From Isoetes taiwanensis (lineage: Eukaryota; Streptophyta; Lycopodiopsida; Isoetales; Isoetaceae), in NCBI GenBank assembly GCA_021234155.1, contig JAJEKV010000013.1, positions 13,927,877 through 13,991,876 on the forward strand: a DNA stretch of 64,000 bases, given 5' to 3'. The position numbers were made by a program, and so were the translations under genes. Below the pieces are notes generated by a model that was given only the letters and a program-made list of their open reading frames with translations, was not told the origin of the DNA and made no database searches. Each line of letters begins with the position of its first letter. Position 1 is the stretch's first letter. This document shows positions 2,377-61,900 of the stretch, piece after piece.

Positions 2377-3355
2377 GTTTTTTTTTTTTTGGCTATATAT
2401 ATATTATTTAACTAACATCCAATAGTAGCCATATTGACACCTTGAGACGCAGCTAAAACAACTATATAAGAGGATAGCTTACCCGGTTTAACTGTATCTT
2501 CCACGTTCCCCTTCGCATTGGTGGAGAGCACCTTTCTCAAGAACTGAACCAAAATACTTTTCCCTTTCTCCTTAAGACGTATTTGCCATGATGTTAAGAA
2601 AATGCGTTGGTATTGCATGTGGAAAATTTTTAGCTGAGCTATTCACTACTATTTGTTTATTGTTCCTTTATGCAAAACTATGATCTTTTTTGTACTGACC
2701 AAAATTTTGAAATGAAAATTACAAAATATTGGGTTTAAAAAAAGGGTAGATATCTTATGCCGTATAACATGTGCAATCATATCCTCAAGTTACATGGCGA
2801 TGCAATTGCAACCCATTTGCCATCAAAATTGGTATATTCTCAAGTTACATGGCAATGGAATTCCAACCCATTTGCCATATGTTCCCATCAAAATTGGTCC
2901 TCTCCCCAAAACGCGGATATAGGCTGGGGGTGATCATAACGCTATCAACATTTGTCCCACGTAAATTTTCCCATGCACATCCATGAATATATGGTTGTGT
3001 GGTTTTTCACGGACTCACTAATACAAAAAGAACGAATGCTTATATGTAGCTATTCACTACTATTTGTTTATTGTCTATTTATGCAAAAATCATGATGATT
3101 TTTTTTTTTTTTTAAATTGAACGAAACTTTTGGAAATTACAGAATATTGGGTTGAAAAAAAAAGGAATAGCATCTTAGCCTATCGATCGAAACTTTTGGA
3201 AATTACATAACATTGCGTTAAAAAAAGGGAATAATATGTTGTGCTATACAATCCCATGCAATCATATTGTCAAGTTACGTGTATATTGTCAAGTTACGTA
3301 TGTTGAACGATGTTTTAGGCAAGCTAGCACTTTTGCCATCAGCTGCCAGAAAAAA
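2377..3355. other. AT-rich spacer, no gene seen
   Basis: No coding signal was recognised. It contains homopolymer T runs, and near-duplicate phrases at 2783-2830 and 2833-2885 (a 'caagttacatggc' start followed by an 'acccatttgcca' phrase). It may include the untranslated 5' part of the Helitron to its left. Confidence 0.5.
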
Positions 3356-3515
3356 ATCCATGCTCTCTCTCCCCAAAACATGGACATAGACTAGCGATGA
3401 ACTTATAATACTACCAACATTATATTAAACCAACAAATCCATACTCTCTCTCCCCAAAACATGGACATAGACTAGCGATGAACTTATAATACTACCAATA
3501 TTATCTTGGACCAAC
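3356..3515. repeat. Two-copy tandem duplication, about 80-bp unit
   Basis: Copy 1 starts at 3356 and copy 2 at 3436. Both contain 'ctctctctccccaaaacatgg' less one base and then 'gaacttataatactacca', with few differences, so the duplication is fairly recent. Confidence 0.85.
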
Positions 3516-5754
3516 ATACTATCAGACTATCGGTGAACATAATACTACCAACCTTATCTCAGACCAACATCATGTATGGCTTCCAAAGCTATGGCCTTTT
3601 CAGAGCACTGGAGGCATGTCATTGGCAACTTAAAATGTCAAATTCATATTCTTTTTTAAGACGTAAAGCATATCAGGAGTTGTTAATAAGAATGAGAATG
3701 AGAATGATTCTTTATCGTCCACTGAGGCCAATCGGCCTATGGGACCATAAGGAGCAGAGATCATTCACACTTCTCCATATAGCATTCCAACTAATTATCT
3801 CTCCACAAATTACAAACTGGCAAGGTTTCTAATTTCACATCCAACACTATTCTATGCTCAAACGTCACTATTCAAGAGCTCATAAAATAAAGCATGGAAA
3901 GCTAATCATTGCTTATTATGATTTTTGCAGATCTGAAAGCAAATAGTGTATGAGAAAAGATTTTATGCCATGTTAAAATCTGGGATTCAGAGCATGAAGA
4001 TTTGCAAGGAACAGCTCGAAGGGCTTAGATTCAGGCCTCATTTGAGCATTTCAAGCTTGTTGTATATCAAATCTCTTCTAAGTTTTGAGAAGTTGAAGGA
4101 ATCTGGTTGATTTGCAAAGATTAATAATTTATTTAATTAGATCCAAATGCAAAACAGGGTAAATCTTGAAGAAAGAGAGCATAACTGGAAGAATTCGAGC
4201 TGTTTTCCACGTTGATGGAGTTTCTTCATAGAATTGGAAATCTGGGTTGAATCTTTTAAATCTGGAATGGATCTGTCTTGATCTGTATAATTTGGACCGA
4301 TTCTCTGCCATTTGGATTGAATATGATATCTTGAATGCAAAGATGGCTTTTAATTTGTTGCGGAGATCTAAAGCAGAAGAGTGATTTGCAGCTGAGGGTG
4401 ATTCGTTTGGCCAATCTTAAGATGGCTTTGGCTAATCTTACTACGGACAGACGACAGATAGTAATTTGTGTACATAATAAATGGCAACAAAAACCTTATT
4501 TCATAAATGCCGTATTATTGCTATCAGCATGAATACAACCCTAAGACCTTTTTCTCAGGCAGTCACTTTGATGCCTTTGGCATCAACTCAGTAGAGCTTT
4601 TCTGGTTGATAATGTCGTGAATTAAAATTGCCTTTGAGATTCCTATCAGTCCTGTGCTTTTCCATCTAGAGCACATGGAAATTAGCGATATCATTATTAC
4701 AGACCAAAATCATTTCACTATGAGAATCTAAGGTTTTACTGTATGGTGGTTGGAAAGTTAGGTGGCAGAACCTCTAAGAGCAATGGTCATGTGGGCTCTG
4801 CTAGAGGATGCAAGACATCCTGCACAACGGTATGAACGTCTCCGCCAAGAAGCAGAAGCTCAAGTATGATCAAACTAATATATCCTCTTTGTGAAGCCCC
4901 AAGATGTAGTAAACAAACAGCAAAAATTAAAAGAAAATGGCCATAGGCAAAACTTAAGCACATTGGATCAAGTCCACAGTCCCATACCAATTTCATCACA
5001 GAGATTGGGTTTCTACCTCTTCAAAGAGCTCCTCCGGAGCATCACATATTATACTTCCAGAAAGTCATAAGCATGGGGAACTCACACATTAAGACTTGGT
5101 TGAAAGGAGAAACGAGGCATCTGGTTCTCCAGATGGAATGTATAGGAATAGAGGTGTATACAGGTGCATAACAATGAAGATCACAACTACCTAAACACTT
5201 TGGACACATGTTTTCAAAGTGAACTTTGAGATAATAATGCTTTGAAGTTGGTAAAACACTTGCAATACAAAAACCAGATTAATCATGTATTTGTCAGGCG
5301 CCCTCGTGATAGCTGTTAACACGCTTACCCATGAAAAAAGCATCGGGCTATTGCCTCCATTCACATGGGAGTACACCGGCTCAAAATTGAGATAGGCAGA
5401 TGGGCCAAGGAAAAGTGTGAATAGAGGATCTGCCAATGCTGACACCTAGGAGTTATTGAAGATGAGGCCCATACTCTTACGCATTGCCCAACATTTGCAT
5501 CTATTCCGACACAATAAGGGGTTAGCTATGCCTGACCAGCTGCTACGTGATGATGAGAACACCTGCAGTAGCAGCACTGGCATGCTACGTCCAAGAAATA
5601 TTGGACATGCAGGGGTCAATTATGCCCCGAATCATCACACAGTCATGCTAAAACATATACCTTCTCAGCAAGCCTATTACTGCTAAGATTTTTCCCCTGA
5701 AAACCACTCGAGGTAGGTTTTTTTAATCTGGAAATCAATAGGCCAGCTGTTTTT
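3516..5754. other. Spacer with one retroposon 3' end, no gene seen
   Basis: No protein family was recognised on either strand. At about 3685-3755, read on the minus strand, is a short sequence (GGTCCCATAGGCCGATTGG, then GTGGACGATAAA) followed by a pentamer/hexamer tail of TTCTCA type. The same 3' end recurs near 5.77 kb and around 50.9/58.2 kb. The rest is AT-rich unique-looking DNA. Confidence 0.5.
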
Positions 5755-7272: not shown

Positions 7273-10200
7273 TTACATAAAGGCTAGTGCCTCCACGTTG
7301 ATGGGGTATGCATACTCTCGAGACCCCTTCCAAAACTTGGCCGCAACAATGCGATTGAGAGCCTCAGTCGGGTGAAAGAAGTCCCAGAATGCATAGCGAG
7401 ATGCATCAGCACAAAAAGGCAAGCTGCCTAGATAACATGGTTGATGCACATTTGTAAGCCCAAAAGATGATGGGTTTTCAATAGTTCCAATCATCGCATT
7501 GTAGAGGCTAGCATGAATAAAGTGTGCATCTGTGAGGCGATGCCTTAGCTGATCTAGCTGATTCATAAGTAGCTGGTTGAATGATTTTGCAAGGTCGTTA
7601 AGCTTAGAATCACAAACTCCTATAGTAGCAGCAACAAAAGGCTGACATCCTATAGGCAAAACATCGGTAATGACAATCTTGCGAGCTCCCATACTATATA
7701 GTTCCTCTATATACATAGAAAGGGTGGTGACTAGACGTACAATTTCACCTTGAGTGACGGTGTCATGCGTGAGAGCATCAGCAATATCAATATGTAGCAT
7801 TATAACAGGGGGTTTCTTTTGTATTTTTGTACGTTTTTTCCTAAGGTTTTTATATGATTTCATGGATGTATTTGATGAGGCATACTGATTAGTATATCTA
7901 GAGTGCGCATACGCTTAAACTAATTTTGATGCCTAATTCCAATGGTTTAGACCCATATGTCATATATTTCTTAATATATTATATATTTTCTTGTAGTATC
8001 ATATTCTGCTCGACATGCAAGCCTCGAGACAACCCATTTTAGGGTTATGTGTTGGGAAATTATTGGATTCTTTTTCAAAGATCCGAGCCGGTGTCTCGAG
8101 AAAGAACTGCACCACCAAGACAGGTGCCCGAACACCCTATTTTTCCTTTAGGCGGGCATGCAGCCTTCTTGCAATAATGTTTTAGGGTTACTGCTTCTTA
8201 TGAACAGAATACAACCAAGCCCCGATTTTCAGCTTCTTGTAAGCGGGTTTACACAAGCAATCTTGAGGATTTGATTTGTTTGGAAGATGGAAGAGAAAAA
8301 GTGCAGCCTTGGTTAACCCATTCAAACGATGGTCCTTAGATCCTTGTATTACAAGACCAAATCTGCCGTTTGTTGCTGTGCTTTGAGAGGGTGCAGAATG
8401 GAGCCGCTTGGAGTTCCAACAGCAAAAGGTAATTAATGCATGGCCTTCGATTTCCCTCTTGGAATGTTTCTTGAGCTTTTTTTTTATCCCGAAATTGGTG
8501 CATCCCTCTTCCAATCAGGCATGTTATAGGCTGAAAGGCCAACACCCCTTAAATCCATGGGATCCTCCAAATGGCCTGTTCAAATCTTTAGGTATCGAAT
8601 CCAGCATTGTTCTCTGTTGTTGCTCCCTTAGTTCCCTCCCGTCCTTTGCAAATGCAGACTGTGTCATGGCTGCCCGTCGTAATGACCCATCTGGATTGTT
8701 AACTATCTTCAGAGGTTACATGTCAATGGAATACCTGGTTTGGCGACTAAGGAACAGTACATCTTATTGTGTGAATCCAAAGTGCCCAGTGTGAATTTAT
8801 TGTGTGAATGACATTCTTTGACCTGCATAGGTGAATCAACATGGCCCATTCTAAAGTAGGCTTCATTGGACTTGGCGCAATGGTGCCTAATCCACCTTTG
8901 TTATTGCAAACATTTGTCTTCAATTCTTGGGAGCTTATCTTCAATTCTTGGGAGCGCAGAAAAGTTTGTTTGTTTAAGTGGCGGGACTTGACTTCGCTCT
9001 TACGCTATCATCATCAGTCTTTGTAGCCGTACGATCGCCTATGCTTCTCCTGATCAAATGCACACCATGATTCTCCTAATCAAATGCACAACGCCAGGGA
9101 TTCAAGCTCTTCAAGTGGCAAATCGTCTTCTGCAAATGGCAGTCGGCAACAAACCAGGTTAGGAAGCGGAAGCTTTTGCAGGTTGTGCAACACAAGAGCA
9201 AGCTCTGAAACATATTTGAGGAAATTTAGGTGGTCAAAGTACAGTGGCGGCAAAGCAAAATTTTGTTTTCATATGGCAAGCTATTGCACACAATTACTTT
9301 GCAAGTGCTTTGGTAAAACCTTAAGTTCTCGATTCTTTCATTTGCCCCATTACAGGATGGTGGTATGAAATTGTAGAACATTCAGGGCACCTATGGTGGA
9401 CCTATGGTGGAGACCTAGATCGATGCTATTGTCATGCTGAAGGTAAGATTTGTGTGTTTCACCATTTTTGAGATCTCTTAATATTGTTATTCATTTCTTT
9501 TATTTCATTGTTCACACATTGTTTGGCAGGAATTCAACCAATATTTGCGTGGCTTTTAATTTTTTAACTCTATTAGAATGTGAAAGCTATTGTTGTGTTG
9601 ACAATCAGATAAAACATTGACACATTTATTGCTTTGAAACAAGCTACAAAAGTTTCTCATGAGCAAACAAGTTGGAGAGGTTATTGTACAGGCAGTTGGT
9701 TTATTATTAGACACAATGAAATGGTGTATTCTCAAATTTAATATAATTGTTCAAGTGCATAATTTACAAATATGTTTAGTTTGGAGACTCCACTATTATA
9801 ATAAATTAACATTATTAACATAAACACATAACACATATTGCTACATGTTTTAAATGTCTTTTATATTCTCACGTCTGCTTTTTTTTTATGGCCCGAAGGG
9901 CCAAAAAATTTTTTTAGTATAATAACCAACACATAACTACCATTGACATTAATAAATATAACCATTGGATCCAACACATTTAAATTAAAATCCCCCTTAA
10001 ACCCCCTTTGGTTTGGGTGCATATTCACACGGGGGGTGACTCCGGGCATCGAGAGCTGTCGGATTGGCATATTCGCCCCTTATTCTATAATCTACACCGT
10101 ACGTAAAATTCCTCGTTTGTGGGGTATGCAAGTACAAGATTTGCTATACTGTATAATAAGATTCGCAAAATACTATAAGATTTCAACCGGAATACTATTA

Positions 10201-10679
10201 GTGATATAGAAGATAGAACTGGTTATAAAATCATGGGCTTTACGTGCTCCAAGTGTCTCATAAAGTCTTTCTTGAACTCGTCTAAAGTTGGCAACCTGTT
10301 GAGCCATTGGAATTCTACCAATTTGTGCGATACCAGTGTCATTAAAGACGCCGGATCCAGCAGAACCAAAATTGACTCCAAATTTTAAATTGTAACGGGA
10401 GGCGTTGGCAAAAGCAACGGGAACTGGGAGGCCCATAAAGTCGACAAGTTCATCAACAACAAGCTTGCCATTGGAGAAGGGGCCAGTAGCTACACCATTG
10501 GGAAAGTCTTTGCCATATGGGTAGAAATTTGCATTTCCAGTAGTACCAGGCAGATTATTGTTATTGCCAACATCTACCAAAGAGTCCCCAAATATAAACA
10601 TGGCTGGGGTTGCGGCCAACCCTAACGGAAGGGCGCTCGATATGATGCAGAGGAGGAGCAAAGCACGAACCGGAGACAT
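7273..10679 (-). CDS. GDSL esterase/lipase (SGNH hydrolase), two exon blocks
   Basis: This is a secreted plant GDSL-type lipase/acylhydrolase. Exon 1 (10679 to about 10196) starts with a hydrophobic signal peptide (residues 1-22) and has block I FIFGDSLVDVGNNN with nucleophile Ser33, and block II GVNFGSAGSG (101-110). It ends at FYITN with a usable GT donor after 10196. The last exon (about 7800 to 7273) carries GARKIVITDVLPIGC and the C-terminal Asp-x-x-His in WDFFHPTEA, ending at a stop by 7273. Together they give about 340 residues, near the family's usual 350-380. The oxyanion block III (G-x-N-D) falls at the junction and is not visible, and no clean AG acceptor in the right phase precedes the last block. 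Either a small middle exon is hidden in the roughly 2.4-kb intron or the gene is damaged. Family call is firm; integrity is uncertain. Confidence 0.85.
7870..10195. other. Presumed intron of the GDSL gene
   Basis: No second gene was recognised. It holds small direct duplications (for example TTCAATTCTTGGGAGC at about 8919 and 8939, and ATCAAATGCACA at about 9053 and 9078) and a self-complementary GGCCCGAAGGGCC at about 9890. Several open stretches of 60-130 codons here resemble no known family. Confidence 0.4.
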
Positions 10680-10689
10680 GGCGAATTGC

Positions 10690-13180
10690 TCTGCTGCTTG
10701 TTCTGGTTTGTATTCATACCTCTCTCCGTTATATTACTCTGTAAGTGCAAAGACCAAAGCTTTCAAAAGGTCACATGCTTGAATACCCTAAAGGCTCATC
10801 TTTCCTTTTGTCGCACATATTCTAGGTCCGGTCGATTTCTGATAAATAACGTTTTCTTTCTAGTTTGCTGCTATGCATCTTCCAAATATGTTTTTTCCAT
10901 GCCTACCAAGTCTTCCGGCAATCTCCTGCTTCTATGTATTTCTGATTCAATGCAAGTGTACCAAGTCTTCCGGCAATCTTCTTGCACTTCTTCTCTTGTA
11001 ATAGTTTCGGTTTTTAGCATTTGCAGGTCCTCATTTTGGCAGTTCTCATTTTTACTCGATACGATCTCAAAGGATGCTCATCTCAGTCTAAGGTATCTAA
11101 AGAAGCTAAGACATCCAAAAATAAGAATTCAAGTTTTGCGGACTATCGTCTGTGTTTTTCTCTGATTCTTTTGAAAAGACTGCTAGTGGCTTCGCATTGC
11201 TATCATGGTCCCTCTAGGGTTAACCTGCAAATTATGTAACCAAAGCTAAAACTTTTGCAGATTTGTATAAGCATGGAGTTGTAGGGAACATCCGGTTCTA
11301 AGAAAAACTCCATGTTCCACTGCTTTGCTAAACGGAAAAGCTTTGCCATGTTAATCAGCCAACGCAAACCCTGTAACCGTTCGGCAGATTAAGGGGCAGA
11401 TTAACCGTTCCAATAGGCAGATTAATGAGGTTTTGGATGTGGTGGAATTGTTTAGTTATACATTGTCATGACCATTCTTCCTTGCACATGTCCATTGTTC
11501 CTTATACCATTGTTCTCCAAAAGACCAGGACCATCTACAATAACCAGCTTGGAAGATACCATGGAAGTTACCATGCATTGCTTGGAAGATACTTGCCATA
11601 GAAGTGGATGCATAAATTTCTGCCTGCAACAAAACTACTACGAGTCAAACCTATTATGGTTATATTTTATTGAACAGAACCAGATTACATAGGCCTAGAG
11701 GTGTGCATTGGTGACTGCCTTTGTTAGCTAAAATTCTGCATTTCAAGAGCATACCCACAACCACATCTAAAGTGCAAGTGATGCACAAAAGATAATAATT
11801 GATTGAGTTTACAAAACTTGTAAAACCTTTGTAAGGGATTGAAGGAACAGATTGATTGCAGTTATCCACCGAATTCATAGCAGATGGAGAAAGGTTTTGG
11901 AGCAATGTAAATCAGATTATGTGGAAGTCAGGTCTTGGGGCAAGGAGTGTTAGGTCTAGGGCAAGAATGGTATCTAGGAGCATGGCATGTCATTTAACTA
12001 ACCAATGTATGTAGCTGTTTCGTGTTTTGAAGATGGATGAATGAGATTGCTAGAAATAATTATTTTCTTCTATAATGCATGCCATCTCAACATGTGAAAA
12101 GCTTTGATTAGAAGCAAAATGAAGTGATTAGATGTGGACAATGGGTGGCCTTTCTAAAGGATTACATTGGCAATAAAAGGGATCCCGAATGGCTATAGCC
12201 AAATGAGCTTAGAGCCAAATGAGCTTAGGATCAATATGCTCAAATCACATTATTCTTTTCTCCCAATCGCAATGTATTTTGTTTTTTGACATTTTGTTTT
12301 TCGTCGAAAGGGAACAGGGTTACGTTGGCAAATGTTTTTTACAAGTTTTTTGTTGGAGGAAAAAGAAGTAATTCAAAAAATAGGGGTTATTTTTGCATGT
12401 TGAACCATTGAGAGTTCATATAAATATGGTGGAGGAAAATATGTACCTAAAAATTAAAAGAGAATTAAAGAAGCTTATGTTATTTTTAGGGCTTATTTGG
12501 TTGGTTTATCTTTTTAAGGGTTTGTTATTTTTAAACCTAAGAATCTTTTTATTATCTTTTTAAGGTCTTATTATTTCAAAACCTACAAACGCGAAGGCAG
12601 CTAGGACTTTTTGTTGGACTGCCGCTTGCATATTGGAGGATGCCCATTGGAGGATGCCCAGATGAGCTGTGCGCGCTGTGCGCCCTGCCTGACCCGGTCA
12701 GACTGTTGCAGGGGGAATGTAATTCCTGGACTCAGGGATTTGCTGATTTGCGTGATCCTAATGAGCTTGAGCTTCCCTGTGCTTGAGCTTGAGCTTGTGC
12801 TTGATTCTGGAACACGAATTTTGGTGGTTCACCGGCAGTGTTGAATTGGGCATAAATTGATCTTATCTGGCTTTCCAGGTATATGCATGGTAGACTTTAG
12901 GGTCGCTTTTGGATTCATGCAGCTGAAAAGGAAAGAGGAGATGAACGACAGCGGCTTGGTTACTTTTAGAGCTTAGCCATGGCTGAACAAGCTAGAAGAC
13001 CTACAAAAGATAGCATTGCAGACTATATATGGAAGATCATTGTAGTGCAGTAAGCTTTTACGAAGATATAGGTAGGTTGCTCAGTTTATTTTTTGGGCCT
13101 CTTTTCTTCCCTACCGCAGAAGATGATGTTATGATGGCTGCATGTTATTGGTTCCTTGTGTTGCGGAGTTTCCTTGGAAG
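10690..13180. other. Spacer, no gene seen
   Basis: This is AT-rich DNA upstream of the GDSL gene. A 19-bp phrase TACCAAGTCTTCCGGCAAT occurs at about 10908 and 10960, and 'ggaggatgccca' occurs twice at about 12634-12660. No coding match was recognised. Confidence 0.5.
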
Positions 13181-37120: not shown

Positions 37121-37125
37121 CAAGC

Positions 37126-38698
37126 TGTGACGTCCCCTACTCGCATACGGTGCACTCACCGTATACAAACAGGAGTTCATCCCCCATACCAGCTCCATGC
37201 CGATACAGGGCCCTCCACGTGACACTGCAACCGTGACGGGTTCCAGTGGGAAGAGTGAAGGGGTCATTTTACCACGTCTCCCTCAGGGCCTACCTAGCTG
37301 CGGAAGCGTAAACATACATGTCAGTATACAACATAATCACATATCCACCTCGAAGGGTGGTGCGTCACATCTGCATAGACAATGATCAGCATCATACATA
37401 GGGGTCCTACCCAAGGCTCAGACTCGAAGGGATGACTGACGGCTTGGGTCTCCAGAGTTCATTGCAGACAGAATTCATGGCAATGGATTTGGCTGGCATA
37501 TGAACATAGCATAGGGTTGTCCACTCCATCCGCCCCTCCTGTGCACACTTTGCAGAGTAGGTTGAAGAGTGTTGAGACCTGACTATAGCCCGCCGGATGC
37601 ATAGCCGAAAGGGCTATTCCTGGGCTGCATCTTCCCAGTTCCGATGGGGCAGGTAGGGATCACTCCCTCCAGAGATCTACATGCTGACTCAAGGTGACTA
37701 GAGGGCCACTGCCCTTATTCGACTGAACCCACTGGAAAGTGTACACCACTTCACGTCGGGTGTCGAGCCCATGCTCTACCCACACTCAGTGGTAAGCCAT
37801 TAGACCTAGTCACAATGATCCCCGGTAGGCCTTACACACCAGGGGGATCGTTCAAGAGTCAGAACATGAACCTCCTTCTTAGCCAGTCTGGCCCCTTCAC
37901 CCACAACCAGGTGTGGTTCTTGTACACAGGCCGAATCTACAGTGTGCTAGAGAGGCTAATCTAGGAGCATCTACTACCAAGCTTGAGATCTCTACCCCCC
38001 TTCCCAATACAAGGAGCTCACAGATATACATCATCCATATACAACACAGAGAGCTAAAGAACTAGATCTAATCTATGTCATAGAATTAGGTTCTTTAGTT
38101 AGAGTCTGGTATCTAGAGGTCTAGATAGCTGCTAAGGGCGAGGTAATAGGCTAAACCTACTGATATAAGGACTGGAAGAAGGTTTAGACTATTAATTCGA
38201 CTACATACCTGATCCTTGAGTTGCTCCTCCTGACCTGAGTTCCACCATCCTGCTGAACTGCTCGAATCAAGGAGAACTAATGGTGCAATTCGCTTGCACA
38301 GCTTCTGGGAGGCGGTTTTGGCTCTTGGGGCAGCCAAAACAGAGCTCTAAAACCCTAAAAATGAAAAATGGGCAAGTTAGGGTTTCCCCTCCTAAATAGA
38401 CAAGGGTGGGGCTAGGGTTTCCAATTATCCCCTTTTGGCATGTGGGATAATTGGGAATGGGCCCACTTGCCTTTAATGGCTAGGTGGCAAAATGTGCCCA
38501 CATGGAAAGGTGTGCCCACATTAATGTGCACATTGGTAAATGTGCACATTAATAATAAATGCACATACCTTGCAAGTTGCCCCCTAGGGCTACTAGCCTG
38601 GCTACGCGTCGGCGTACACGTCAGTCGGGGTGGCGTGTACGCGTGACGGGGCAGTACAGTATACGTCTTGGGACCGTATACTGTGCTGGAACGTCACA
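37126..38698 (-). repeat. Left LTR of the chromovirus (full copy)
   Basis: 1573 bp, with TG...CA ends inside a longer terminal inversion (TGTGACGT / ACGTCACA). A perfect 10-bp hairpin (ACAGTATACG with CGTATACTGT, 38656-38684) lies close to the edge next to the internal region, and a shorter one (ATACGG with CCGTAT) lies near 37146-37165. Confidence 0.9.
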
Positions 38699-39547: not shown

Positions 39548-42300
39548 CTAATCTACACAAATCGACATGCCTGAGCCGATTTCTTCGGAGATGACTTTGC
39601 CGTCCCATTGCTCCATAAACTGTGGGTACTGCTTTACTAGATCTTTCTTAAGTACCCATGTGGCGTCTTCCACTGGCAAGTGCTTCCACTTGACCAAGAA
39701 TTGGAGAAACTCTGATCTTCTCGTTTTCTTGAAGGCTTTATCAAGAATCAATTCTGGAACTAAATCCAGCTGCTCCTCCGTCATTTCCAACAACGTTGGA
39801 GTGTCCAAGACTTCGTCTGGATTGGGGGTATGTTTCTTCAATAAACTCACGTGGAAGACCTTATGAATCTTTAGGTGTGCTGGCAAATCTAGCTTGTAGG
39901 ATTGATTACCTACTCTCTTGACTATTCTGAAAGGTCCAGCCCACCTTGGAGCAAGCTTCTTGCAATTACCGATGCGGAGCTTCGCCTGCTTCACCTTGAT
40001 CTTGAGCCATACATCGTCTCCAACTCGGAACTCTCTGACTGTTCGATGCTTGTCGGCGATGCTCTTCTGTCGACTTCTTGCTGCTAGCAGATATCCTCGA
40101 ACTTCTTCCACGAGCTGCTGCATGTCGGACAACATCTGCTGCGAAACCTCTACTTTTGACACGGGATTGTGCCAAGTGTCTGGAGTTAGGCACTGATAGC
40201 CGTAATTAATCATAAACGGCGACATTTGGGATGATTCTTGCTTGGTGCTATTGTAGGCAAACTCCACCAAGTGAATAAATTCTTCCCACATACCTTGCTT
40301 ATTCCAGACATAGTTCCGTAGCATGTCCTCCAAAATCCTGTTGGTCCGCTCCGTTTGGCCATCCGTCTGAGGATGATACGCCGTGCTCATGGATAGCTTC
40401 GTCTGAATGGTCGCAAAGAGGTCTTGCCAGAAGGCACTCATAAACTTCGGATCCCTGTCGGAGATAATCTCCCTTGGCATGCCATGAAGCCTGAAGATCT
40501 CCTTGGTGAAGAGCTTTGCTGTATCCATAGCCGTATCTGTGGTCCTGCAAGGCACAAAATGTGCCATCTTCGACAACTTGTCGACCACCACCATCAAGGC
40601 ATCCTTCCCTCTTACTGTTCTTGGAAGCCCTGTGATGAAATCCATGCTGATCACCTCCCACTTAGCGTTTGGCACCGCTAATGGCTCTAATGCTCCTGGA
40701 ATTCGAAGCTGCTCTGCCTTCGTCTGCTGACATAGCTGACATTCCCTGATGTAGCGAGCTACTTGCTTCTTCATTCCTGGCCAATAATAGCTGCCGCGCA
40801 CTTTGAAATATGTTTTCATGAATCCCGCATGGCCAGCTATTGGGCTGTTGTGCGTGTCATGGAGGATCAATTTCCTTACACCTGATGATTCGGGCATGCA
40901 CAACTTGTTCTTATGGTATAACAGGTTGCCTTCCTTCTTATAATGTTTAAAGGCTTCCCGCTCTTTATCTGTTCTAGCCTCCCTAGAGAGGCTTGCCCAT
41001 ACTTCCCTGAAATCCACGTCCGTTGGCAAGGACTCTTCAATCTTCTTACCAAAGTCGCTGGAGAGCGTCGAAATTGCATTGCAATGCACTCTAGTTGTCA
41101 GGGGATGCCTTGAAAGCGCATCCGCTACCACATTGAGCTTCCCTGGCTTGTAGACTATATCAAAGTCATACTCTTCAAGGAACTCCATCCACCTTCTCTG
41201 CCTCAGGTTGAGGTGTGGTTGCGTGAATACATACTGGAGGCTCAGATGGTCTGTATCCAATTGGAACTTCCTTCCCAAAAGATCGTGCCTCCAAATTCTT
41301 AATACCCTGACAACCGCAAGCAATTCCTGATTGTGCGTCGGGTAGCGCGTTTCGGCGTCGTTCATCTTCCTGGAATTATACGCTACTACACGCTCTTCTT
41401 GCATGAGCACTGCACCTGTAGCTATCTTACTTGCATCCGTGACTACAAGCTTATCTTTCTCTGGGTCTGGCAGGGTTAAGACTGGGGCGGTTGTTAATGC
41501 TTCCTTCAGCAATTCAAATCCCGCTTGTGCTTTCTTGTGCCAATGTTCTGCCCAATCTTTCACCTTTTCCGCCCTCGTCAAGTCTGTCAGCGGGGCCGCT
41601 ATCTTAGCAAAATTCTTCACGAACTTCCTGTAGTACCCTACTAGGCCGAGAAAACTTCTGACCTCATGCACATTCTTTGGTACCGGCCACTGAATGACGG
41701 CTTCAATCTTGGCAGGGTCCGTCGAAATTCCTTCTACTGATATCACATGACCCAGGTATTCCACCTTCTCCGTTGCGAAGTGACGCCCGACAACTTATGC
41801 ATAACCGGTGCCTCTTCAACTTCTCCAAAGACTCTCCTTAAGTGTTTATACGTGTTCTTCAAGGGATCTGCTATACACCAAAATGTCGTCAAAGAATACA
41901 ATTACAAAGGTGTCTAAGAACTCCCTGAAGATGTCGTTCATGAGCCTCATGAACGTCGCGGGGGCGTTTGATAAGCCGAAAGGCATTACCGTGAACTCAT
42001 AATGCCCATACCGCGTTCTGAAGGCGGTTTTATGGATATCTTCTTCCTTTATCCGGATCTGATGATAACCTCGACCTTAAGTCGATTTTGAGAAGACCTT
42101 TGCACCTTGAAGCTGATCCACCAAGTCATCTCGATGCGGGAGCGCATACTTGTTCTTGATGGTGTGCTTGTTCAAGCGCCTATAGTCTATATGCACATCC
42201 TCAAACCGCCATCCTTCTTCTTGACAAAAGAATAGGCGCTCCAAAGCGGCGAGGACGCTAGGTCTAATGAAGCCTAGGTCGAGCAACTCCCGCAATTGCT
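39548..42300 (-). mobile_element. Chromovirus pol region: RT, RNase H, integrase, chromodomain
   Basis: Fossil pol domains, right to left. Reverse transcriptase is at about 41500-42300 ([17 protein letters not shown]; then FLGLVGYYRKFVKNFAKIAA in the connection). RNase H is at about 41080-41480 (VVTDASKIATGAVLMQEE, YPTHNQELLAVV). Integrase covers about 39900-40900, with an HHCC zinc site (HAGFMKTYFKVRGSYYWPGM) and a core containing MDFITGLPRT and YHPQTDGQTERTNR. The chromodomain is at about 39605-39754 (FLVKWKHLPVEDATWVLKKD). The integrase-chromodomain end is well conserved; the region as a whole is broken. Confidence 0.92.
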
Positions 42301-42458
42301 TCTTTAGCTCCGTCGGCTCTCGCGGTCGTCATGCGTATGGAGCCTTACTTGTCGGCTTTGTTCCCGGTTCGAAGTGCTATCTCATACTCGACTCCCACGT
42401 AAGGAGGAGGAAGCCGCTTGATCTCATCCGAAAGAGATCATGGAACTCCGTGATCAAC

Positions 42459-44396
42459 TTAGCTATTTGCCGGCAACTTTTCGAGCACCTTGTCTTCTTT
42501 GCTTTCTTCCAACTCCGGTTCTTCAATCTCAAGCTTGAAGATGTATGCTACCTGCTCGCTCTTGATGCACTTGAACAGCCGCTTAGAAGACATACACTGC
42601 ATGATGGGAACAACTTCTTTACCTGTGATCTCAATGATCTTGCCGTCGGGCGTTGGGAAGGTCACCTTCCGCTTCCCACAATCGATGATGGCCCCTGCTG
42701 GTCCAAGATACTCCATTCCTATGATCAGGTCATACTTGCCAATGCCCATTACTTCTGCCCCCATCTGGATATTAATCCCTGGCAAGTCGATGTCGAAATT
42801 AATTCTCTTGCCTGACGTCTGCCTTACTGCTCCACTCGCTAAGACAACGGGCCTTGGCTTCGACTTTAATGGTTTCAACTTCAACATTTCAACCATTCTG
42901 GGGGATGCAAAGTTATGGCTACTTCCTGAGTCTATCAGGACTATGAATGACTTGGCCTTGGCCTTCCCTACTGTGGAAATTACTTTATACTGGCTCTCCG
43001 CTTGCTCTGTATCTATTGCGGCAAAGATATGGCACTCACCCTGGATGTAGTCGCGGACTGCTTCGCCGTCGTCGTCAGACAGAGTGTCCCAATCTCCCAA
43101 CTCCGCTAGCGCTGCACTCATGACGTAGGGGCAGTTCGCTGTCCTATGGCCTGGCTGGAAGCACCTGAAGCAAAGCTGCTTTTCTATGCACTCTTGCCTC
43201 TTTTCCTTGGGCATAGCCTGCAAAAAGGATCGCACTGCTTTGGAGTAATTTGACCCCTCCTGCTTGTCCTTGAAGGACATCTGTTTCTTCTCCTGCTGCT
43301 TTCCCTGGTTGCCACCATATGGGGCTCTAGCTGGACCTGGACTGGCTGCCCTAGGGCTATAACTCCCTGTTGCCTTGCCTTTATCCTGGTAATACTACTG
43401 CCTCTGCCCGCTATTCTGAGGTCCTGTCCCTTGCAAGCTTATTGCCTTGGATTCTGCTTCTGATACTGTCTTAGGGTTTATTGCCCTTACAAGCTTGCGG
43501 ATCTCCTCGTTCAGCCCCTCAATGTAGCTCTCTACTGCATGCTTTTCACCCCACCTTGGCACATAAAGCCTTAACCTCATGAATTCCTCTGTATATTTCT
43601 GGACTGATTTGTTTCCCTGTTGCAACCTGTAGAACTGTTGCATCATGCTGGACTTGTGCTCTCTTGGGACGTAATGGCGCTTGAAGGCTTTAGCAAACTT
43701 TCTGAACTTACAAGCATCCCTGCTTAAGCCATGTGCCTTTGCATAACCCTTCCACCAAATCCGTGCGGCTCCTTTCAAGTTGGCTGTTGCCACTCTGCCT
43801 TTGTCTTTATCCTTCATGCCATAGGCATTGCCGTACTCACTCATTTCGTCCAGCCATGCCTCTGCTTCTAATCCTGATCTGTTCTCCCCCGAGAACTGTT
43901 CGAGTTTCCGGGCCTTCCATACATTGCCCAGTGCAGAATCTACCTTCTTCTGGTAGTTAGAGGCTCTGGTGTCTTTTTGTCGTCCATATGCGGTATCCCT
44001 CTGCCTTCCATCTGTGGTGACCCTCTGCCTCCCATCTGTACGGTCCTGGGCCTGCTCTTCCTCTTCCTCGGAGTCGGAGTCTGAGTCCGAGCTTGAGTCG
44101 GAGGATTCCGAGCTGGAGGACCTCCTTCTCTTGCTCCTCTTCTTGTCTCTTCCTGTTTTCCGGGCTGATGCTTGCGGCAACTGGGCGTTGCCCACCGAAC
44201 CCGCTCCTGCTTGTGCGACCAGCAAAGCCTTTATCTGCTCCAGGTCCGTCCTCATCTGTGATATTTCCTCTTCTGGGGTCATGGGTCCAAATTCCTCAAA
44301 CAGGTTCCTTGCCGGGGGTGGCCTGGGCGGACTCTGTTCTTCCATATGGTCTCGGCATTGTCGTTCCCCTGAGCCTAGGCCTCTAGCTGCATGCAC
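42459..44396 (-). mobile_element. Chromovirus gag, zinc knuckle and protease region
   Basis: Gag is at about 43395-44396: a proline-rich start, a serine/acidic middle, then the retrotransposon gag fold (EAWLDEMSEYGNAYGM, AARIWWKGYAKAHG, QGNKSVQKYTEEFMRLR). At 42459-43280 a CCHC knuckle (CFRCFQPGHRTANC) is followed by the aspartic protease motif (FIVLIDSGSSHNFASPRM). Order and content are normal for a chromovirus; the fossil is broken. Confidence 0.9.
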
Positions 44397-44549: not shown

Positions 44550-46115
44550 CTAATCTTGAAATCGCCGGTAAGATGGGTTGTCCTCAAGGAACTTCTTAAC
44601 TTGGGCCGTTCCTATGGAGTGTCCCAAGTTCCTAAGGACATTGGTCGACGTCCCGCCCTGCAAGGCCGTCACCAACTCTTCCACCCTGCGGTCGGAGGTG
44701 TAGGCCGCGGTTACCGCCAATCTTCCCTGCCGTCGGTAGGGCACGGCGAAATCGAAGAGGTCAAGTGCCATTGCTCTCTTCACTAGGACAGCATAGTCGA
44801 CATTTGCCGCTATTCGAGCATGCCTGCCGAAGCCTGAGAGTGCAATAAGCATGAACACTCCTTCTTCTCCTCGTGGGCTGAATTTGCGGAGTACCACCGC
44901 TATTCTCCCATCCAGCAGCAGGGGCAGGTAATACCTCAGCGACCTGTCGTTGTGTGTTGCGGATGATTCCCCACTTGCTTGGCCTCCAGCTCGATGACGT
45001 CCGGCGTACTCGTCGACCTCTACCTCAGTCAGCTCTCGGTAGTCTGCAATTGTGGAGTCGACTCGCCTGATGTCGATTCCGGCTCCTCTTGCTGGAGGTG
45101 GTGTCGAGGGGCTCGGCATCAAGATGCTGGTGGTCTTGTCTCTGATCCCCATCCGTTCCTGAATGGCGAGGAACTCTTCTTCCGATGGCAGGTCTCCGGC
45201 CTCCATAACCTGTCTTATGCTGATGTAGGCCTGGATGTCGGAAGTCGACTCCCCTGTGTAGGTGTCGGCTTCTCGCACTTGAAGCGGGAAGTCTGAGGCT
45301 CCCCGGACGATGAAGTCGTCCAAATCTGGTTGCTGCCGTAGTTGGTGCAGCAACTCATCAAGCCGGAGCTCCCTCTCCCTGCATTCGGGAAGATTCTGTA
45401 TGTCACTGAGGAGTAGATACTCCTCTCCGTTGATGATGATGGGGGCTAGGCTTGTGATGCCTAGCCCAAGTGGTGGAGCGACTCTGAGGGTCTGTCGGCT
45501 CCGCTCGATGTTGGCCAGCTCCTCCTCTGCTTGCCGCCGTTCTTCCTCTGAGTCGAGCTCCGTGTACTCTTCGTCGTCCGACTCCTCTTCTTCTTCGCTT
45601 CCTTCTTGCTCCTGCTGGTACTGCAAAAGCATCCGCTCTTCTGCTTGGGCTGCTATGGGGTCCACCTCCATGGGACGAATAGAGGTTGCCCCCATTGGGT
45701 TTTCGGCACGGTGGGATAGGAAAATAGCTAGGGCGGCGGTATAGGAGAAATACTTGGTCCTGTCAACTGTCAGGACCATGTAGTCAGGACCATGTAGTTT
45801 GGGACATCACCCAAGGCTGCTTGAAGGGATGGACGGGGCACAAAATAGCCTATGCAAGGGGGGAGCTGGACGAGGGAGGGTCCTACCCTAGCTTGGAACT
45901 CTGCTAAAACTTATCTATATGCTGGGGTTGCATTCAGAGTGGCTTGGAAATCTATTTCTTTCCCAAAGACTCGGAAGATGTCATTGACATCCGCCTCGGC
46001 AGCATGGGCACTGGCGCTGTACCATCGCCTGAAGTCAGCAGTGGCCATTGATCTAGCGAAGAAGAGACTATCAAACAGATGCAGAAGCGCCTCAGGGAGC
46101 TGGAAGATCGCCTAA
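44550..46115 (-). mobile_element. Extra frame upstream of gag, unrecognised protein
   Basis: A long coding-like stretch precedes gag on the same strand. Its first part (about 45790-46115) reads on the same strand with similar character (for example FRRWYSASAHAAEADVNDIF). The main part (44550-45779) has an acidic region (EEEEESDDEEYTELDSEEE), a leucine-rich middle, and a structured-looking C-terminal third (SLRYYLPLLLDGRIAVVLRK, VDYAVLVKRAMALDLFDFAV). I recognise no family: it is neither gag nor a histone. Extra frames before gag are known in Ogre elements of the Tat lineage but are unusual in chromoviruses. Fossil, broken. Confidence 0.7.
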
Positions 46116-46311
46116 GCAGTGGAGAGCAAACTTGTAGGGTGCTAAATGGGGAAATGGGGGACCTATTTATAGAAAAGGGGGGAAAACCCTAATTTTTGGA
46201 TGACCTAGAATTTACTAGGATTGGGCGATTCTGATCTATTAATAGGTGCAATTGAGAGTTTGAAGACTACTTTTATCATTTGGGTATGGCATGGTGACAA
46301 AATGCTGAGAG

Positions 46312-46378
46312 GTCTCACACGTTGCGCCCAGACCGATAATGAAAAGTTCATTTTCTGCCCTGGCGCGACGTGTGAGAC
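46312..46378. repeat. Nested hairpin, copy 1
   Basis: GTCTCACACGT (46312-46322) pairs perfectly with ACGTGTGAGAC (46368-46378). An inner palindrome AATGAA / TTCATT sits in the middle, and GCGCC-like bases extend the outer stem. It lies between the two extra frames of the chromovirus. Confidence 0.9.
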
Positions 46379-46507
46379 ATGGGTTCTAAATGGGCTAAAC
46401 TGAGACATGGGTGATCTAAGGGTCTAATCTTACTGAACTCGTCGAGTTAGGCAGAATTGACCCCTTATTTGGTCGATTTGGAGCTGTTTTGGGCATTTTT
46501 GGGCATG

Positions 46508-46574
46508 GTCTCACACGTTGCGCCCAGCCCGAAAATGAAAAGTTCATTTTCTGTCCTGGCGCGACGTGTGAGAC
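46508..46574. repeat. Nested hairpin, copy 2
   Basis: This has the same 67-nt structure as 46312-46378, with only a few differences confined to the loop-proximal parts. It starts 196 nt further right, with perfect outer arms at 46508-46518 and 46564-46574. Confidence 0.9.
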
Positions 46575-46717
46575 ATCGTCTCAATTTTGCTCAAAAAGTC
46601 CAATTTTACTAAAACAAAAACCAGAATTCAATATCTTAACCTAATTAAGCAAGATTAACATATTATTTACTCAAAAATTCTTTATATTAACAAAAATTTC
46701 CATTATTTACAAGAAGT

Positions 46718-47728
46718 TCAAGGGCGTTCTCCCTTGATGTGTCTAGCCAGATGCATATCCTGTCTCATGAGTGTGACCCTCTTCGCGTGAACTGTGCAGG
46801 CCGTCGAATCTTCAAAGTGCTGCACCAGTTTTTGCTCTGCTGCCTCCTGTAGGCACAACAACATTTCGTCGGTCACCCGCATGTCTGTGTTATACTCTTG
46901 CATAACCTCTCGGACCAAGCGTTGAAACGGTGCCCGGGGGATCAAGAGTCCGTAACTTCGCTGGAAGTGCCGGATTTCCTTGAGGGCTCTCTGCTCCTTC
47001 TGCTTGCTGTTGGTCCGCTTCTTTCCTGGTGCTTTGGGAGGCTTGGGCCTGGGTGGCGGCGGCTTCAGGGTCTGGCTTTTTGTCGGGTGTCCGCCTTCAA
47101 TTGTTCTCACCCTGTGCTCCTGGTAGTAAGCGTTGTACGCCTCCCACTTCACCATGTAGGCATTGTGCTCCTTGATCTTCTTCTGATAGACCTTGACGGG
47201 GTCTATCACATACGCCTCCCGTTGTGGCCGCGGGGCTTTAACCCTATCCCACGTCGGGAAAGGTGGGGGTTTCGCCAGCTGCCCGGGCTGCTCCTGTTCT
47301 GGTGCCACCTGCTCAGGTACTTCCTTCTCCACGACCGGGGGTTTTGAAGAACTTGCTCCCTCAGTGTTGGGGATGTAATCTTCGTCCAAGTCGTCGGTAG
47401 AAGGCGGGGTCTGCTCGCCTGATGGCCCATTGATGATGGGGCCCTTTGCTCGCTTACCAACCTTCACAACTGTTCTCTTGCCCGCCTTAATGCCTTTGGC
47501 CCTCTTCCTCTTCGGCTCGCCGGCTGTGGTTGGTTCGTCCTCCCGTCTTTTTGTCCTCCTCTCTCGGCGGCGCTCTTTGGCTTCATACTTGCTGATGAAC
47601 GCCGCGAGGTCTTCTTCTTCAGTAGGGCTAAGCTTCGGCTGCCGCTGCTCCTCTCTCTCCTCAGCCTCCTGCAGATGGGCCCAAGCTTCGAGTTGTTCCT
47701 CGACAGTCGGCTGAACTGCTCGAATCAA
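46718..47728 (-). mobile_element. Retrotransposon frame ending in a histone H3-like domain
   Basis: 336 codons on the element's coding strand. Residues 1-245 form a charged, lysine- and proline-rich tail with a basic nuclear-signal-like patch (KRKRAKGIKAGKRTVVKVGK) and PPPPRPKPPKAPGKKR just before the fold. Residues 246-336 (46993-46721) are a complete H3 histone fold: ALKEIRHFQ (alpha-N), LLIPRAPFQRLVREV (alpha-1), NTDMR (loop 1), LQEAAEQKLVQHFED (alpha-2), HAKRVTLMRQD (loop 2), LARHIKGERP. Against remembered canonical H3 residues 45-135 it aligns with no gap, about 48 of 91 identical, and ends at the same residue. ALKEIRHFQ and RVTLMR recall plant CENH3, but loop 1 has the H3 length. The canonical ARTKQTARKS tail is absent. 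The frame opens against the right LTR copy, so its true amino end is uncertain. Confidence 0.9.
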
Positions 47729-48155
47729 GGAGAACTAATGGTGCAATTCGCTTGCACAGCTTCTGGGATGCGGTTTTGGCTCTTGGGGCAGCCAAAACAG
47801 AGCTCTAAAACCCTAAAAACGAAAAATGGGCAAGTTAGGGTTCCCCTCCTAAATAGACAAGGGTGGGGCTAGGGTTTCCAATTATCCCATTTTGGCATGT
47901 GGGATAATTGGGAATGGGCCCACTTGCCTTTAATGGCTAGGTGGCAAAATGTGCCCACATGGAAAGGTGTGCCCACATTAATGTGCACATTGGTAAATGT
48001 GCACATTAATAATAAATGCACATACCTTGCAAGTTGCCCCCTAGGGCTACTAGCCTGGCTACGCGTCGGCGTACACGTCAGTCGGGGTGGCGTGTACGCA
48101 TGACGGGGCAGTACAGTATACGTCTTGGGACCGTATACTGTGCTGGAACGTCACA
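47710..48155 (-). repeat. Right LTR copy of the chromovirus (partial)
   Basis: 446 bp nearly identical to 38252-38698, with four substitutions and one single-base length difference by my reading. It is followed by the target duplication CAAGC and lies directly against the H3-like frame. Confidence 0.92.
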
Positions 48156-48160
48156 CAAGC

Positions 48161-60339: not shown

Positions 60340-61900
60340 TAAAGGTGTAGAGGGGGATTCACGTGGGTGCCATATAATGTGCCTGAGTGACTTGTTCCCT
60401 ACCATATCCTTTAAAGGCTTCAAATGCTTCATCTTTGATTTTTATGCAATAGCATCTTGTCATTATGCTAAAGTCATCTATAAAAGTTATGAAATACCTT
60501 TTCCATTAATGTTGATCACATTCGAAGTACCACAAAAATATGTATCCAAATCCAGATCATCATAAGAACACAAATGCACTAAGCTAGAAGACAAAAATGT
60601 GCTGGGTAGAAACAAAGTCAGACAGTGAAGCGTCTGAAATTATAAATGATGTTGATGCCATCTAAGCAAAACTCTGACGGATTAAACGGATTGAGAACGA
60701 TGAGTTTTGTCGATAGTGTGATGTGCCTGTCGGATTCACCCTCTAATGTAACCCGAGATCCCATCAAGACTTGCCTGAACACTAACAAGTTGGTCTACAT
60801 GAGTTGAATAATGCAATGCAAAAGCATTCTTAAGCCAAAATTCACAGTAAAAAATTGAATCTTTAATCCCAACCATATCCAATAACACGTATGAGCTCAA
60901 AAAGATATAAAAAAAATCAAGCTATATATAATGACAATGCTTTATGCTCGAAGAATCCACATGTTAAGTTTATGAAACAATAACAAGACCTTGCTAAAGG
61001 CTAAAGGCTCACAAAGATCTTCCAGGCTTCTAACTCAGTTGAGGCCTTGAATTGCGTGCGATCATTCAAGGCTCATGTCTATCTACTTACACCATGAACA
61101 ATCCACAGAATCGTGCGCAATGTGGGAGATCGCCCTAGCTGACGTTAAGCTCGTCTCGGCAGTGCGGAATGAGAGGGCCAGCGTTGTCGAATTTTGGGAT
61201 TAAAATGACAAAGATAAAGAGATATCTTCCATCTCCTTTTGTTCGTAGTCTCTATGGGATGCAAGCACTTCCCTCGAGATCGCTCAAATGTTTTCTCGGA
61301 ATGGCTGGATGCACACTATGATATCGCGATTAAAGGGGATATCTAGTTTGAGTGGATCCATCTAATCATGTTTGCTCCCCATGCTTTCGCACCTCAGCGT
61401 CAGTAGAGACCTAAAGATCTGCCTTCGCTTTTGCCGTTCCTTCGTACGTTCCCGGATTTTATCCCTGCACACGAAATTCCACTCTTCTCTATCTTACTCC
61501 ATTGAATTCGTATCGAAACAGCAGTGCACATAAATGAACTGCACATAAATGATGTTCGAAACAGCAGTGCTCCCAATAGAAATCGAAGGACCGTGGTGGC
61601 TGGAAGTGCTTTTCTAATCACTGGTGAGAGACTAATTTTCCCCGAAGAATACGCATAAGATTTCTTCATTCATGGCCAATTAGTATTGATATTTAAGCTT
61701 TCTAACATGAAATGACACTGCTTGGGCGTTGTTCCGAGTATTGAGTACGTATAATATTTGGGGTTGGTTATGAAGACTCAGAGAGGGTTTGAGGCATTTA
61801 AAAAATGCTAGCATAATGAACAAGAACATACAATGTACCAATCACAAAAATTATTCTTAGATTTAGATGCCTCGCCTGAGAATCCCTCTATGCTAGAAAC
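60340..61900. other. Spacer, no gene seen
   Basis: A minus-strand 89-codon frame at 61400-61669 has a short hydrophobic segment and could be a first exon, but no family is recognisable, so it is not called. Confidence 0.4.

Follow-up and report, generated by a model that had tools for sequence, protein, structure and literature searches.

A high-copy lineage of chromodomain Ty3/gypsy LTR retrotransposons in Isoetes taiwanensis encodes a protein that is, with near certainty from its sequence, an H3 histone. Judged from the copies compared, the gene is present family-wide and lies between the primer-binding site and gag, in a two-gene cassette with a second extra gene, ORF2; both the H3 gene and ORF2 are under purifying selection. 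Among the possible functions, we favour that of an anti-silencing histone variant, with a probability of roughly one half, over targeting of integration, a decoy, packaging and a functionless passenger. The gene was met in a 64,000-nucleotide stretch of contig JAJEKV010000013.1 (assembly GCA_021234155.1, positions 13,927,877 to 13,991,876), here called the window, whose H3-bearing element is, by its sequence, a degraded copy of this lineage.

The H3-like frame of the window runs on the minus strand from 47728 to 46718 and has 336 residues without a stop (338 from stop to stop). An earlier note, made from the letters of the window, had described a 336-codon frame in coding orientation within an LTR element, and the translation together with the gag, protease, RNase H, integrase and chromodomain of the same element bears this out. 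In agreement with the histone read by eye in that note, the Pfam Histone family matches the frame with an E value of 4.1e-28, and the best PDB sequence matches are H3 (H3.3, E 1.3e-27). Over canonical H3 residues 47-134 the fold aligns without gaps and with 49 of 88 residues identical (55.7%), where the note had counted about 48, and it stops at the terminal position of canonical H3, with P for A. Moreover, the Pfam family was found in all 12 aligned copies, and for 50 of the 89 positions in the fold the majority residue across 35 copies agrees with canonical H3. Relatives of the fold among the 120 matches listed show 41-60% identity; a search of the window frame against 5.8 billion proteins gave 21 matches, one of which (P0010) covers 54% of the frame and the others at most 37%.

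An AlphaFold2 model of the window frame, built on an alignment that includes 32 further H3-like proteins, shows the helices of H3 in their order (residues 241-258, 265-278, 287-317 and 322-331) at modest confidence (mean pLDDT 67.9, pTM 0.30), and the best 50 of its 126 Foldseek matches are all nucleosome, octamer or tetrasome entries, superposed loosely (rmsd 11.7-19.1 Å). The parts of a histone fold, i.e. the alpha-N helix and helices 1-3, are accounted for by the Pfam match and the predicted helices. Of the residues that we take to contact DNA, 8 of 14 are kept and R49K, R63P, K64R, F84V, Q85T and S86D are changed; of those that presumably form the H3-H3 interface, 7 of 10 are kept. Because several of the presumed DNA contacts are changed, stable nucleosomes are not assured. 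The same changes weigh against a role in packaging, in which the protein would compact the cDNA or RNA of the element inside virus-like particles. H3 does compact DNA and is encoded here upstream of gag in the same element, but packaging would not need the canonical tail tip, and the element frames scanned yielded no further recognisable core histone; we consider this role very unlikely.

The element motifs EIRHFQ, LLIP and VTLMR resemble those of plant CENH3, and the earlier note had brought in CENH3 and the centromeric CRM elements. In the gapless alignment, however, loop 1 has the length of H3 and contains no insertion of the kind that lengthens loop 1 in CENH3; in this respect CENH3 does not fit, and the proposed link is not supported. 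A tree of 47 rows unites the element H3s in a single clade (94/82, narrowly under the tool's star) on a long stem; 24 of the 43 inner branches of this tree are open, long branches meet in it, CENH3 is represented by one plant sequence and a few matches named as CENH3 or resembling it, and the clade may descend from either H3 or CENH3.

The element of the window is bounded as an LTR retrotransposon: its LTR ends are TG and CA within inverted termini (TGTGACG/CGTCACA), and the 5-bp duplication GCTTG is present on both sides. Downstream of H3 and on the same strand follow ORF2, gag, protease, a broken reverse transcriptase stretch, RNase H, integrase and chromodomain (Table 1). The order protease, RNase H, integrase and chromodomain, as found by Pfam, is that of chromodomain Ty3/gypsy elements, and the reverse transcriptase between them is named by its position and by eye. 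In the window copy this stretch (42458-41795) has 6 to 13 stops per frame in all three frames; the adjoining 748-aa frame and gag are open, and the break may be very local decay or an assembly error.

A self-comparison of the window showed just a 447-column repeat and left the remaining ~1127 bp of the LTR unmatched inside the element. An LTR of 447 bp was rejected since the 3' copy continues to CGTCACA and then GCTTG, giving a true LTR of 1573 bp. Gone from the window copy are ~2.0 kb, a size estimated from the coordinates of another copy (L009), comprising the remainder of the 5' LTR, the primer-binding site and the first ~86 H3 codons. Because the H3 frame starts exactly at the break in the 5' LTR, the quoted frame opens with residues that stem from the LTR, and it has no start codon because the missing ~2 kb include those ~86 codons; no in-frame ATG precedes the M in NAYMVKW. 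Across 447 columns, four substitutions and one indel separate the two LTR pieces, and this similarity suggests that the window copy is a young insertion. In other copies the primer-binding site TGGTATCAGAGC directly follows the LTR and is exact in 13 of 18 loci (the 18 of 20 with a readable LTR end). A putative LTR-borne exon of gag (MVELRSGGATQGSG/GTATGT) would be spliced in frame to gag at GGCTCAG/GG; when the window and 20 loci were compared, the exact donor pattern was present in the window and in just one of the loci, L009, and this exon is for that reason proposed with caution.

Elsewhere in the window, positions 61276-61572 hold a bacterial-type SSU rRNA fragment (Rfam RF00177, 59.5 bits), perhaps organelle-derived. 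The long minus-strand frames at 19-2277 presumably resemble a Helitron helicase-like protein, and those at 7273-7914 and 10173-10733 presumably resemble a pair of exons from a host gene for a GDSL esterase/lipase.

Table 1. Features of the H3-bearing element, in window coordinates.
Feature	Position	Strand	Basis or remark
Target-site duplication GCTTG, 5' side	48156..48160	-	same 5 bases after 3' LTR
5' LTR, only first 446 bp (TGTGACG...TTCAGC)	47710..48155	-	98.9% identity to 3' LTR, 447 columns
H3-like frame, 5'-truncated, 336 aa, first codons LTR sequence	46718..47728	-	translation, Pfam, PDB matches
Histone H3 fold (residues 246-336)	46721..46993	-	Pfam, PDB matches, model, Foldseek
Palindromic repeat 1 before ORF2	46507..46576	-	sequence comparison
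Palindromic repeat 2 before ORF2, 96% identical to repeat 1	46311..46380	-	sequence comparison
TATA-like site CTATAAATAG before ORF2	46163..46172	-	sequence
ORF2, second extra gene, without Pfam family	44550..46048	-	disrupted near start; main open part 45806-44550
gag, putative second exon	43395..44368	-	3' splice site after GGCTCAG (44375-44369); splicing predicted from sequence
CCHC and aspartic protease part	42459..43394	-	Pfam
Reverse transcriptase stretch, broken in all three frames	41795..42458	-	place between protease and RNase H, reading by eye
RNase H, integrase (H2C2, rve), chromodomain	39548..41794	-	Pfam
Chromodomain, group II type by eye (2 of 3 aromatic-cage residues gone)	39602..39757	-	Pfam; criterion from accessible part of PMC3350952
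Polypurine tract AGGTGGGGAGAA	38699..38710	-	sequence
Complete 3' LTR, TGTGACG...CGTCACA, 1573 bp	37126..38698	-	self-comparison and other copies
Putative first coding exon of gag within LTR (MVELRSGGATQGSG, then GTATGT)	38209..38248	-	in frame with gag across predicted junction
Target-site duplication GCTTG, 3' side	37121..37125	-	sequence

The same assembly was searched for further copies (1,658,258,908 bases, 1110 contigs). With the window H3 frame (P0001) as query, at least 121 matches were found (best 120 of 14,493 first-look candidates), and with the H3 of a second subfamily, L027, at least 111 (best 107 of 34,044 candidates); both counts are lower bounds, and a few copies count in them as two pieces. 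Eighteen H3-selected stretches, picked across the match list for stop-free frames and ending at 10 kb, have an LTR upstream of H3 in 17 cases, ORF2 downstream in 17 and both in 16; they contain gag in 17 cases, protease in 16 and pol in 15. Elements were also ranked independently of H3, by ORF2 alone (query P0023, at least 86 matches, best 86 of 12,500 candidates), and the H3 frame lies just upstream in 21 of the 22 top-ranked elements: in 14 by the coordinates of H3 matches (same strand, adjacency by eye) and in 7 of the 8 others within 451 upstream bases, some of these 7 frames carrying frame breaks. No H3 was found in the 451 bases upstream of the remaining element, C1031:16253835. A host gene next to an LTR, a one-off capture and a misassembly were rejected because the gene recurs in a constant position in many copies; in particular, a misassembly would not recur at as many places as the 121 and 111 matches represent. 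The element-borne H3 of the earlier note is thus a property of the family, and none of the three grounds that the note had named for giving it up (family members lacking the frame, no significant histone match, a misassembly) applies.

In one copy, L010, positions 2241-3230 and 3501-4493 appear to be a tandem duplication of the H3 region. The pol matches (best 60 of 47,029 candidates) are all at least 92% identical to the window pol and the H3 matches 75 to 95% identical to their query, in match lists that differ in depth (60 of 47,029 vs 120 of 14,493 candidates), and in ten neighbouring pol-H3 pairs the table starts are separated by 6.0-7.5 kb. The 5' cassette may thus predate pol, possibly as a result of copies recombining with each other.

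Open copies elsewhere in the genome are 411-450 aa long, most often 417 aa, and consist, in order, of MARTKQTARKP, a variable insert of ~300 aa and the fold; they carry ~86 further N-terminal residues in comparison with the window frame. The "245-residue tail" of the earlier note therefore holds as a long N-terminal region, but not in its extent, as it is cut short by those residues and its first 5 are LTR; other genome matches start at query residue 3 or later, mostly at 4-6. The N terminus is that of canonical H3 except that P replaces S10, and position 10 is P in 34 of the 35 open copies. Using a tolerant motif pattern, 51 of 64 loci (62 chosen by H3 matches and two, L027 and L028, by ORF2) show the N-terminal motif, and 35 are open from the motif to the end of the fold. 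Since a count by motif pattern selects for the motif, the N terminus was reread without it in the 59 of 64 loci that could be anchored by residues 12-75. The 11 letters of MARTKQTARKP are all kept in 42 of these loci, 10 are kept in 6, 9 in one, 7 in one and five or fewer in 9, which by our reading are frame breaks or rearrangements. At 1180 random places in the same loci, five or fewer letters were found at 1166 and 10 or 11 at 14, the latter probably near the H3 gene because many loci are short. In total, the ARTKQTARK N terminus of H3 is found across the family and is absent from the truncated window copy. The continuous canonical tail, from K14 to K36 and joined to alpha-N, is not found, and the ~300-aa insert stands in its place; because of this replacement and P10, we regard the protein as an H3-like variant and not as canonical H3.

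The purifying selection between copies that the earlier note had proposed as a check is clearly present. In pairwise Nei-Gojobori comparisons pooled over 35 open copies, dN/dS is 0.157 for the H3 frame overall, 0.056 for the fold, and 0.25, 0.195 and 0.16 along the length of the insert. The value of 0.012 for residues 1-10 in these copies is lowered by choosing copies by motif; codons 2-11 give 0.045 once the 9 of 59 loci that keep fewer than 7 of the 11 letters are left out, over the remaining 50. The open-frame filter lowers dN/dS somewhat, and without it the window-length frame gives 0.18 (18 loci), compared with 0.18 for ORF2 (8 loci), 0.21 for gag (8 loci) and 0.22 for protease (11 loci), each with one match per locus, at least 70% identity and more than 60% coverage. 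Compared with the diverged copy L027, dN/dS for residues 11-70 is 1.24 on ~25 synonymous sites, the other parts being saturated. Nonsynonymous differences per site from L027 are low in the tail tip (0.07) and the fold (0.19) and high in the insert (0.43-0.63), which supports that tip and fold are constrained and that the insert is fast-evolving.

These values bear on two further explanations. As a decoy, the protein would be a soluble mimic of the H3 tail that titrates readers and writers of H3K4 or H3K9 outside nucleosomes; ARTKQTARK is the best conserved stretch, the long insert parts the tail tip from the fold, and some of the presumed DNA-contact residues are lost. A peptide decoy would have no need of the fold, however, which is also under strong constraint, and we hold this explanation to be quite unlikely. 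The second explanation is a passenger, i.e. a host H3 that the element picked up by chance and multiplied although it serves no function, or else a product of misassembly. Gene capture by LTR elements is common. An H3-like gene of a fungal hAT transposon has also been described as possibly drifting (accessible part of PMC3538342). For a passenger, however, a pooled dN/dS near 1 would be expected, and the values found, overall and without the open-frame filter, contradict this; moreover, frame and position are conserved across diverged subfamilies, the gene has its own regulatory modules, and it recurs at many places, so that we give the passenger explanation almost no credence.

The regulatory modules are alike for the two genes of the cassette. 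In most of the copies compared, two palindromes of ~65 nt, ~200 bp apart, lie before both H3 and ORF2, followed by CTATAAATAG and, ~110-120 nt further, by the ATG. Of 18 copies, 12 have all four palindromes recognisable with both halves, and 14 have the exact TATA string in front of H3. In the second subfamily, L027 has three and two palindromic repeats of other sequence at the same places, and both L027 and L028 carry TATA-like strings. That the architecture is kept and the sequence has diverged is as expected if a subfamily-specific protein binds the palindromes. ORF2 might be this palindrome-binding protein, a link that is positional. It is a protein of ~500 aa, for which no Pfam family, no PDB relative and nothing significant in structure-side searches was found, and its predicted model is without recognisable fold (pLDDT 33). 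A relative of 501 aa (P0023), 47% identical, is encoded on a short contig of a public data set (among the best 8000 candidates); ORF2 would on this evidence exist beyond the window's family, perhaps in another species.

The chromodomain of the element is relevant to where the H3 might act. Of the aromatic cage Y24, W45 and Y48 only the W of VKWKHL is left (by eye; numbering as in the accessible part of PMC3350952), and the domain is not of the H3K9me-binding group I. According to the same source, again as accessible, no partner was found for group II chromodomains. In place of such a cage-less domain, the H3-like protein, on H4 or on histone chaperones, could tether the integration complex to nascent or special chromatin, and the strong conservation of the H3 fold would suit such targeting. 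Yet the H3 gene stands apart from pol, without fusion to it and behind a promoter-like module of its own, and group II chromodomain fusions are reported to reach heterochromatin by themselves (accessible part of PMC12786077); we therefore regard targeting as unlikely.

For the anti-silencing histone variant, the effect itself being inferred, we count the H3 fold, its family-wide presence and fixed place, the selection on it, its N terminus, the palindromes and the cage-less chromodomain; against it we count the changed DNA contacts, the modest model, the dN/dS above 1 for residues 11-70 relative to L027 and the positional nature of the ORF2 link. In this mechanism, the element H3 would pair with host H4 through the conserved fold and would enter nucleosomes or chaperone complexes, preferentially on the element. 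The tail would keep the K4 and K9 sites, with S10, K14-K27 and K36 lost or replaced, and the long insert would alter the reading or writing of H3 marks by silencing factors. ORF2 or a host factor could bind the palindromes and thereby focus or regulate the action of the element H3, and the net effect would be anti-silencing. VANDAL elements, which are DNA transposons, offer a parallel. Their VANC anti-silencing proteins target repeats that diverge between related VANDAL elements (accessible part of PMC5735166), much as the palindromes differ between the subfamilies here. As here, an extra element protein occurs there together with repeats that differ between related elements; by contrast, no histone is involved there, and the repeats are the targets of VANC, whereas the link in our element is positional.

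The same genome contains other classes of H3 fold. Canonical H3 as query gave at least 150 matches (best 150 of 9064 candidates), and these 150 comprise 15 host-like H3 genes (96-98%) and 135 matches at 71-86%. L077 (C1034:26617480-26618900) contains a 441-aa frame with an unrelated N-terminal region, without the ART tip, followed by an H3 fold (Pfam E 3.8e-41) ~84% identical to canonical H3; its class has at least 101 matches, mostly full length (best 101 of 12,557 candidates). In a 501-base piece downstream of it (L078), a frame is weakly similar to ORF2 (27% over 93 aa; E 7e-5, a value from a one-sequence database), and the H3-ORF2 pairing may, as an ORF2-like frame follows L077, be older and wider than the window's family. 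We put forward only tentatively, as somewhat less than an even chance, that this is a selfish histone system, in which an ancient mobile cassette of element H3 and ORF2 sets the chromatin of the element apart from that of the host and occurs within a single genome in two or more very dissimilar forms, namely the ART-tailed class of the window and the L077-type class. At L014:9670-9948 (minus strand), just upstream of the LTR of an H3 element, lies yet another, third kind of fold, which shares 62.5% identity with canonical H3.

Histones are host proteins through which transposons get silenced, and the anti-silencing variant, if true, would be a direct case of a parasite turning a core histone against, or around, chromatin silencing. 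The element H3 is moreover a testable handle on how elements with cage-less group II chromodomains cope with chromatin, and nucleosome biochemistry would gain a natural H3 whose tail tip and fold are separated by a 300-residue insert. Finally, element-encoded H3 may distort histone counts and the results of H3 antibodies in genomes of this kind.

In the open-licence PMC literature we found no retrotransposon-borne histone, in line with the earlier note, which knew of no such H3; the Isoetes taiwanensis genome paper (PMC8566536) never uses the word "histone" in its main text, as accessible, nor does "retro" appear in the accessible part of a review of viral histones (PMC9145170). That note had not reckoned with the H3-like gene (H3L) in a hAT DNA transposon of the fungus Pyrenophora tritici-repentis (Manning et al. 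2013, PMC3538342), which, in the accessible part of that paper, is reported in 26 very similar copies and whose authors say that the genes may have drifted. The hAT element resembles the one described here in bearing an H3-like gene whose N-terminal tail is altered and, in its long form, an extra ORF without known function; in contrast, the fungal element is a cut-and-paste DNA transposon, and the LTR retrotransposon has diverged subfamilies, strong purifying selection and a kept ARTKQTARK. The review lists, in its accessible part, single viral H3s and the bracovirus H4, which has a 38-aa N-terminal extension and joins host nucleosomes (PMC9145170; accessible part of PMC5423620). This, too, is a parasite-encoded core histone with an extended N terminus that keeps modification sites, but it belongs to a DNA virus, and its extension lies ahead of the tail, whereas the ~300-aa insert lies between tip and fold; nucleosome entry has been shown for the bracovirus H4 and is proposed for the element H3.

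The plant chromoviruses comprise Tekay, Reina, CRM and Galadriel, with Tcn1-like elements in non-seed plants (PMC2864245, PMC3350952, both as accessible). The element described here shares with them the LTR, gag, protease, reverse transcriptase, RNase H, integrase and chromodomain, the last group II-like in our case; it differs in the two-gene cassette upstream of gag, no histone gene being mentioned in the accessible parts of these two papers. A 2025 review states, in its accessible part, that extra ORFs occur in most LTR lineages and that the mode of action of group II chromodomains has still to be worked out (PMC12786077). Altogether, a mobile element with an H3-like gene has one precedent in the papers searched, the fungal hAT element, and an LTR lineage that keeps an H3 with the canonical tail tip under selection is, as far as our searches go, new.
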